Shown here one piece after another: positions 3,896 through 6,800 of a stretch of DNA of 64,000 nt. The stretch lies in assembly GCA_012845835.1 (NCBI GenBank), contig JABAKD010000026.1:11408334-11472333 (forward strand), in the 5' to 3' direction. A program made the position numbers and the translations under genes. The notes beneath the pieces were generated by a model that was not told the DNA's origin, made no database searches, and saw only the letters and a list, made by a program, of their open reading frames with translations. This DNA comes from Undaria pinnatifida (lineage: Eukaryota; Sar; Phaeophyceae; Laminariales; Alariaceae). The number at the start of each line of letters is the position of its first letter. Position 1 is the first letter of the stretch.

Positions 3896-6800
3896 GTGGG
3901 TGTATAGGCAATGGGGAATAGGTGGTTAGATGGGTGGGTAACTCGTGCCTCGGCAGTGGTGCTGCTAGTTTATCTGAGGCTTTTTTTTTCGGCCGTTTTC
4001 GAGCCGCCCCCGCGTTTTTGAAGACGAAACACTTGGAATGAATGTAGGGATGGCTTTTGCAGGAAAGCTCCATAGCTTACACCCAAAGAGTAGCTTTTGA
4101 TCTAAATGGTACGTGATGAAAAATCCCATCGCCTACGATAAGTTCGAGGATACATTTGCTATGCTTGGACGCGTAGCATTCAGGCGTCTATCTTGTACAC
4201 TTTTTTTTCTGTCTTCTTGTGCTCTCGTACGCGCAGTCCGTCAGGTCAGCGAGCATCTCTTGCTCCAAGGGTGCAGTCGGGTATCCAATGCACTCTCAGC
4301 GTAATTGGGCCGGGGACGTACATCAACTGCTTGAAATACCCTGGTATGTCATGTACATGTTTTGCCGCAAAAGGTAACTTTTTTTTGCATTCTCTTGTTG
4401 TCTCGGACCTACAGCCCGTTGGGTCGGCGGGCACCCCTCGCTCCAAGGGCGCAGGCGAGTTTCCAGTGCGCTCCCAGGGTGTTTGTGCCGGGGACACAGA
4501 AGGGCGCGTCGACTTTCCTGTTCCATGCCATTTCTTGGCACCCACAGGTAATTCTGCCTGTCTTGAATGTTGCCGGCAGAGCGTGTATAGCCTGTAGAGC
4601 GGTGTTTGTAGACCAAGTTTTACGGGCTGCTCACTCCAGGCTTTTTGTACTGTCCTCGGGTGGGTTGGTTTTAGCCTGTTCGTAGTCAAAGCCTCTTCAT
4701 CATTCTATTTTGTAGGGCTGGCTTATTTTTCGATCCCGGGGTGGTTGTGCCGCGGACGCAGAAGGGGGCATCGGGGTGAGTTTTCCGCGCCTTCTCTTGT
4801 CACCTTCAGGTCGTCCTGTTGGCGTTGGCAGGCATGATAAGAAGCTAAATACTTGCCGGTAAGCTATTTACCAGGGTAAGTAGATAACAAGGTGTCGTCG
4901 GAGAAAAAAAACTGTGTATTGATCCTCACAAAAAGGCGGTGATAGCATACTCATGTACGAAGGAAACGGCGAGAAGCGCTGTTTCAGGCAGCCGAGCCCG
5001 CTCAGCCGCCCGGAGAGGAGAATGTCTTGAAAGTCTGTGGGAAGCGAAAAAAATGTGAGGCCGCTCACGAAATGGAAATTTGTAAGTAGTTCTACAAGTA
5101 GGTAATTGATTTACCTTGTACAAGACAGCATGTGTTCATATGTTGGTTATGAGTTTACCTAGAAACCTATAATTTCTCAGGTCATTAGCAATGATGTCGG
5201 TTTACGGTGTGTTTAGCTTTGGCTCGTCGAGACATCTTTTGACTTGATACCAGAGGTTTTCACGGGTCATAACCTTTGGTTCGGGTGTTGAGGTGTTCAG
5301 TTTTTGTGTGTCAAGTCGGGTCGGGCCAAGAGATGTCGGGAACCTTATGCGGCGGATCGGGTCGGGCCAGGAGGTGTTCAGCCTCACGGGTCATGTTGGA
5401 TCACCATGACCCGGCCCGACCCGATCCGACTCGACCCGTGAAGAGCCCGGGATATATTTTTGGTTCGAGTGTGGGCAGGTGGTTGGCGGCTGTCCGTCAA
5501 GGGCTAAGAGTGTCGCCTACCGACAGCTGGTTATCATGTTATAACCCGGTTTGCGCCTTTTCAGTACTCACACACATTTTACTTTCCAGCTTCTGGACAA
5601 GCCGTGGTCACAGGGGTCGTCCCTTCTCCCCCCCGGTTCTTGCCGTCAATTTTATCGCGCATAGGGTTCAGCAATCCCATTGCTCGTCGATTTTCATCGA
5701 ATGTTGCTAACTCACGCTCTTGCGCTTTCCGCAAGTCAATTTGTGCACAAGAAAAAGTCCCCACGAATTTATACGAGTATGCACTCGGGGGGATTCGAAC
5801 TCACGAAACTGATCTATACCAGGCTCGAGGATAACCTGATACGCCACCGGGGCGACCGGTTCTCTTATGAACCCTTGGGGGGGTTGAGTATATCTTGATT
5901 GTAGTATTGCGACCCCCCCCCCCCAACGATTGCGATATTTTTCAAGCGTCTACGGGAGGCGTGAGCGGGGCAGCAATACACGAGTAGGGATCGTGCTGCC
6001 TGCACCCGTCCTGTTCAAGTGTTTGCACTGTCGTAGTTCGGACACCTTTTTCTTTCATTTTCGCCAACCAGCAGTGGCCGATCCCGTAATCGTCTATTTC
6101 CGTCGTCAATTTTTTCGTTCTGAGTCTCAGAAGGGGTTAATAGTTTTGAAAACTTGTGGTTTGGCTGGAGTTCGCGCCTGATCCTTTTCGCTGGCCATCT
6201 TGGTTGTCGGCTTTCGATCCTTTTGTCCGCCCGTGGTCCTTTCGCTCCTTTTGTCCGTTACCGCCCTTTGTGTCGACCCACATACTTCCCCCGTCATCGG
6301 CCCCTTTCCTCCTCCGACCGTCCTTTTTCCGACGGCGCAGGTGGTTCAGCCGCTGAGGGGCGCGCACGGCTTCAAGGAAACGGGGCGGTATACACCGGGG
6401 GTTGCCATGGGGCCGGAGAAGCTGGGGATTAGGCTAGCGGCGTTCCCATTCATAGGTGGGCGGGCATCCGGGGGGGAGCGGGGGATGTGTTTTTTTTGTG
6501 GTGGGGGTCGTGGTGGAGGAGGTGCTGTTGGCATTGATGGAGTTTTTTTTTGTGTTGGTCTTGGTCTTGGTATTGGTGGTGGTTGTGATAGTGTGGATGG
6601 TACTGGGGGTGTAGTAGTGGCGGGAGCTATGGGACCAGAGATGTTGGGGATTAAGCTAGCGGCGTTCCTGTTGATAGATGTGCGCGCAAGTGGGGGGGTG
6701 CGGGGGGGACTGCTTTTTGTGGTGGTGGTGCTGTGGTAGTATTGGTGGTTGGATTACTTTTGGTGCTGTGATGATGGTGCTGTGGTAGTAGTGGATGTGG

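Follow-up and report, generated by a model that had tools for sequence, protein, structure and literature searches.

Within the 64-kb window, i.e. the whole stretch of DNA that was analysed, two exons of a sulfotransferase gene on the forward strand were accompanied by three copies, all of them incomplete and broken. Two of the copies, here called A and C, lie on either side of exon 2, which carries the PAPS loop and is here called B, and the third, D', lies behind exon 3. The homology of the copies to the exons, their broken frames and splice sites and the intact gene around them were directly observed. Most probably they go back to local DNA duplications of exon 2 and exon 3, after which the additional copies decayed. 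The arrangement would belong to the class of degenerate tandem exon duplications, in which a local copy of an exon stands in a neighbouring intron.

The sulfotransferase gene and its exon copies

All features of the gene are on the + strand, and exons 2-10 have AG and GT borders. Exon 2 (4415-4547) has a length of 133 nt with entry phase 2 and exit phase 0, and exon 3 (6341-6455) carries on its reading frame. Exons 4 (7560-7677), 5 (8071-8150), 6 (8877-9001), 7 (9517-9597), 8 (9904-9993) and 9 (10841-10957) are part of the open sulfotransferase frame, which is completed by exon 10 (11398-11496). When exons 2-10 were joined, an uninterrupted frame of 318 residues with a stop at its end was obtained. 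The 318-aa protein matched PF00685 (5e-9, 36.4 bits, curated cut-off 22), PF13469 (6.7e-8, 33.5 bits, curated cut-off 27) and heparan sulfate 3-O-sulfotransferase 1 (HS3ST1; 1.1e-12). In the coding exon B, QKGAST of the PAPS loop aligned with RKGGTR of HS3ST1, and the lysine is present; we take this lysine to have a role in PAPS binding and catalysis. Because of the open frame and the matches to PF00685, PF13469 and HS3ST1, B is regarded as the working exon. The gene is apparently intact and of algal type, and the role of the enzyme is probably cell-wall sulfation. An acidic, Gly-rich open frame at 2400-3895 (+) is the probable exon 1 or a preceding coding exon; it ends in phase 2, and together with B it gives an in-frame junction. 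Upstream of the gene, very long pentanucleotide arrays (TCTTG, then TCTCG) were seen at 240-2160.

Copy A (4199-4317, +) is degenerate; 38 nt correspond to the 3' terminus of the intron before exon 2, including a T8 tract and an AG, and the next 81 nt correspond to the beginning of the exon. It aligned without gaps to 4377-4495 at an offset of 178, with 89 of 119 positions identical (74.8%, E 6e-18). Copy C (4731-4811, +), also degenerate, corresponds to the final 79 nt of exon 2 with the adjoining donor GT and contains an in-frame TGA. It aligned with 4469-4549 at an offset of 262, with 60 of 81 positions identical (74.1%, E 2e-9 to 3e-9). No dinucleotide-preserving shuffle was as good as either alignment (0/1000 for A/B and 0/1000 for B/C), which removes chance similarity as the source of both matches. 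The protein level gave the same two places: tblastn of the 318-aa protein on the window, up to E 10, returned A at 4e-4 and C at 0.001 besides the nine exons, and one further match at chance level (E 2.6). The initial annotation had placed the copies 178 and 262 bases from exon 2 and had proposed a comparison of the pairwise identities with shuffled sequence; the distances were confirmed by the alignments and the identities withstood the comparison.

The direct match between A and C was weak (40/1000 shuffles as good), because A and C have only 27 nt of B homology in common. In these 27 nt, A and B agree at 21 positions, C and B at 23 and A and C at 18. This would make B central among the three copies, either as the exon from which both were copied or as the one that stayed closest to the ancestor. 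Another history was also considered, in which insertion of B would have split an older exon into A and C; with an overlap on B of 27 nt and agreement in 18 of these, such a history is neither shown nor excluded.

The PAPS-loop exon had been described as present three times, with two copies dead. Repeated duplication and the broken state of the extra copies stand, but neither copy is a detectable whole exon. The homology of A to B stops at the PGT of the loop, and the peptide PGTYINCLK, into which PGTQKGAST was said to have turned in A, lies beyond the end of this homology. The match between the tail of A and the tail of B was marginal (48/1000 shuffles as good). A stretch of ~26 nt may have been lost from A, which would bring GT 4344 opposite the donor of B; resting on a marginal gapped match, this loss is suggestive only. 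For the head of C, homology to exon 2 was not detected (691/1000 shuffles as good). The statement that C keeps QKGAS and adds a stop was correct, since the TGA follows QKGASG in frame.

The third partial exon copy, D' (6626-6729, +), had not been part of the earlier finding. It is degenerate and spans the exon-intron border, with 52 nt from the end of exon 3 and ~53 nt of the intron behind it, and it aligned with 6404-6508 over 105 columns, gaps included, at 78.1% identity (0/1000 shuffles as good). Its donor is lost, with ATAG/AT where exon 3 has ATAG/GT. At the DNA level no homology was found for the head of D' (520/1000 shuffles as good). The protein-level match (tblastn of the 318-aa protein) extends upstream and covers 6581-6679 at 48% (E 0.004), and the true extent of D' may therefore exceed that of the DNA match. 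The copies are not spliced retro-copies, as intron sequence is included in the matches of A and D' over a considerable length and in that of C over only 2 nt.

Splice sites, reading frames and coding constraint

The acceptor of A scored 9.8, compared to 9.0 for B and 2.4 for C, and is at the 99.6th percentile among the AGs of the window. Donors were scored with a rough model built from the gene's own nine donors, which themselves give 6.8-11.3. A would-be exon A (4237-4373, +) could end either at GT 4344 (107 nt, donor 3.6) or at GT 4374 (137 nt), whose donor score of 9.1 is above the 8.3 of B's own donor. The entry phase is kept, and both ends give the wrong exit phase. Hence, of the earlier description that A keeps acceptor, pyrimidine tract and frame, the AG, the T8 tract, the open frame and the entry phase could be retained, but not the exits, as both GTs break the frame. 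Exon A ending at GT 4344 leads to a stop in exon 3, whether it replaces B or is spliced together with B. The strong GTs of A are 4245 (7.4; 8 nt) and 4374, both frame-breaking. Of the 14 GTs with which the acceptor of A could be paired, four leave the frame open when A replaces B (donor scores ≤1.6) and four when it is combined with B (donor scores ≤2.9). A would thus be recognisable as a frame-breaking exon that is unfit to substitute for B.

For the acceptor of C, 16 GTs are in reach. Three of them give an open frame when B is replaced, with exons of 25-31 nt and scores ≤4.2, none of which contains the QKGAS codons, and three give an open frame when C follows B. The best of the latter corresponds to a hypothetical 60-nt cassette overlapping C (4716-4775, +), with a weak AG and a good GTGAGT donor at 4776. 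If it replaced B, this cassette would run into a stop; spliced after B, it would stay open to the normal end in a frame other than that of the ancestor and would add 20 residues. When C is read to the copied donor, the 94-nt exon is frame-neutral as a replacement of B but has the TGA inside, and it shifts the frame together with B. Six specific combinations involving A or C were examined; an early stop appeared in five, and one was open.

Differences between copies and exons at codon positions 1, 2 and 3 were 6, 5 and 8 for A/B, 6, 5 and 10 for C/B and 1, 3 and 5 for D'/D, where D is exon 3. Pooled, 23 of 49 differences are at third positions, which is above one third (P 0.033) and below the share of 0.7 assumed for two constrained copies (P 0.0006; with an assumed share of 0.6, P 0.044). 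The dN/dS was 0.73 for A/B, 0.41 for C/B (computed without the stop codon of C), 0.20 for D'/D and 0.44 for the pooled data. One constrained and one free copy would be expected to give a dN/dS of about one half. The values of A and C appear to fit such a pair, and the pooled value roughly approaches the expectation; the 0.20 of D'/D, which comes from nine differences alone, would also fit a coding phase. Base changes from GC to AT versus the reverse in the copy numbered 13 versus 3 in the exon part and 3 versus 5 in the intron part of A, 6 versus 9 in C, and 6 versus 1 in the exon part and 9 versus 9 in the intron part of D'. Because this direction is non-uniform, it is of no use as proof of decay.

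Local duplications in the window

Local direct duplications, defined as ≤600 bases apart and with ≥50 bits after masking of simple repeats, were counted over the whole window. Outside the gene they were found in four places, near 17049/17209, 31887/32260 and 40857/41088 and within 58100-58441. They cover 2239 of 57915 unmasked bases, the gene's own copies counted in. When the exon set was shifted circularly round the window, at least two exons were hit in 74 of 1280 placements. This control is rough, since the true position is among the placements and the gene's copies are among the covered bases, and from 74/1280 placements the gene is mildly enriched at most. The four places outside the gene show local direct duplication to be part of the background of this genome.

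The duplication 40857-40930/41088-41167 is 78.8% identical, and a related stretch is at 39972-40045. Further local repeats are in 31174-33001, where one pair of ~710 columns with a 373-base offset is 78% alike and another is 87% alike. An interspersed repeat, 5577-5853/29746-30021, occurs in opposite orientation with 84.6% identity and has one copy in the intron between exon 2 and exon 3. It holds the motif GGATTCGAAC, which resembles a tRNA B box; ARAGORN found no tRNAs, and no Rfam match was obtained at the gathering score. A short interspersed family of ~90 bases, 76-88% alike and present in both orientations, was seen at 39415-39504, 42298-42389, 55671-55761, 62122-62212 and 16266-16351. 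On the - strand, a 629-aa open reading frame (23301-25190) has a copia-type reverse transcriptase domain (RVT_2, 1.8e-47), and a 216-aa open reading frame (60535-61185) has a weak match to the La domain (29.2 bits, below the curated cut-off of 37.1). In viral contigs, three stretches fitted a pattern, none of them a relative.

Origin and fate of the exon copies

In the preferred account, short-range duplication of genomic DNA, by recombination or slippage, would have copied exon 2 locally at least two times and exon 3 at least once, and coding constraint would have been retained by B and the original exon 3 only. The extra copies would then have decayed: A by loss of detectable homology from the PAPS loop onward and of its exit phase, C by loss of its 5' part and gain of a stop, and D' by loss of most of its 5' part and of its donor. 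A, C and D' would now lie silent within introns, to be skipped in splicing. The order of events and the origin and age of the copies are likewise what we infer. Some features would fit less easily with decay. The acceptor of A is no weaker than that of B and the strong GT 4374 could close a 137-nt exon, the 60-nt part of C could be read in frame after B with a good donor, and two exons of one gene are hit, which seems mildly more than random placement gives.

The initial annotation had proposed that the copies may record a system of mutually exclusive exons that was tried and later lost. In this reading, A and/or C would originally have served in place of exon 2, one version at a time, before they died. 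Indeed, these are tandem copies of an internal exon, the entry phase is alike at the AG of A and at the weak AG before C, and in the fly, tandem clusters of terminal exons in the sulfotransferase gene pip are mutually exclusive (PMC9013439). By the rules in PMC5740500, mutually exclusive exons are similar neighbours that are equally long or differ in length by multiples of three and are free of in-frame stops. Similarity between the neighbours is present (74.8% for A/B and 74.1% for B/C), A itself is open, and the 94 nt of C differ from the 133 nt of B by 39, which the length rule allows. However, with its plausible donors (107 or 137 nt) A differs from B by 26 or 4 nt, and C holds the TGA after QKGASG. 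Moreover, the codon-position pattern of A/B is nearly flat with a dN/dS of 0.73, substitutions are roughly as in copies free of coding constraint, and other local duplications are present in the window. A lost exon switch is therefore very unlikely, and this part of the annotation was not upheld; the copies may have been functional for a short time in the distant past. That A is a poison exon, whose splice sites are kept since its inclusion leads to a premature stop and less enzyme, is unlikely as well. The high percentile of its acceptor, the early stop caused by the 107-nt exon alone or with B and the frame-breaking 137-nt exon that GT 4374 would give all point in this direction, and for U2AF1 it is described that messages with a wrongly included duplicated exon decay (PMC5224494). 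In contrast, the intron part of A is kept no better than its exon part (27/38 versus 62/81), the 41 nt from GT 4374 to exon B would be short for an intron, and chance survival of the AG and the T8 tract would not be surprising at 75% identity.

It is very improbable that the copies are fragments which recombination or conversion within a cluster of paralogs introduced from other sulfotransferase genes. Saccharina japonica is reported to have tandem sulfotransferase clusters (PMC7291590), but a second sulfotransferase gene was not found in the window (tblastn, 318-aa query, E ≤10), and in the common 27 nt A and C are each nearer to B than to each other, which local origin from B explains. Least credible is a joint reading, in which A with the donor at 4374 would act as a poison exon tuning sulfotransferase output and splicing of the 60-nt part of C behind B would add 20 residues directly following the PAPS loop; decayed copies would then have been re-used for regulation.

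Tandemly duplicated exons are cited for about 10% of animal genes (PMC9013439), so calling the duplication unusual was overstated. Tandem exon duplications with unannotated intronic copies (Letunic 2002 as cited, and cases, in PMC9013439) are alike in that exon-like copies beside a working exon were found by similarity; the present case differs in that the copies are incomplete and defective, that they match two exons of a single gene, and that the organism is an alga and not an animal. Mutually exclusive exons of the human atlas (PMC5740500) and of fly pip (PMC9013439) are also neighbouring homologous exons, in pip even of a sulfotransferase. The copies described here break the length, frame or stop-codon rules, and while pip exchanges terminal exons, here an internal exon is copied. 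The most telling precedent for a lost exon switch is pip, together with the ROCO LRR exon arrays of brown algae (PMC11378527), which share intragenic exon duplication and entry phase 2. Those 72-nt units can be gained or lost in frame, whereas the asymmetry of exon 2 (133 nt, entered in phase 2 and left in phase 0) means that a complete additional copy disrupts the frame. The pip and ROCO units would be exchangeable or addable without breaking the message, unlike the copies of exon 2. Degenerate sulfotransferase exon copies in an alga were not found among literature titles and abstract starts, by which their absence is not proven.

The locus provides a clear small example of exon duplication ending in decay: two exons, neither with a length divisible by three, are accompanied by three incomplete copies. 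Gene prediction can be led astray by exon-like sequence that has a good acceptor, as seen here. Splicing of A or C, if it occurred, would mean that dead exons had been re-used to control an enzyme of, probably, cell-wall sulfation.
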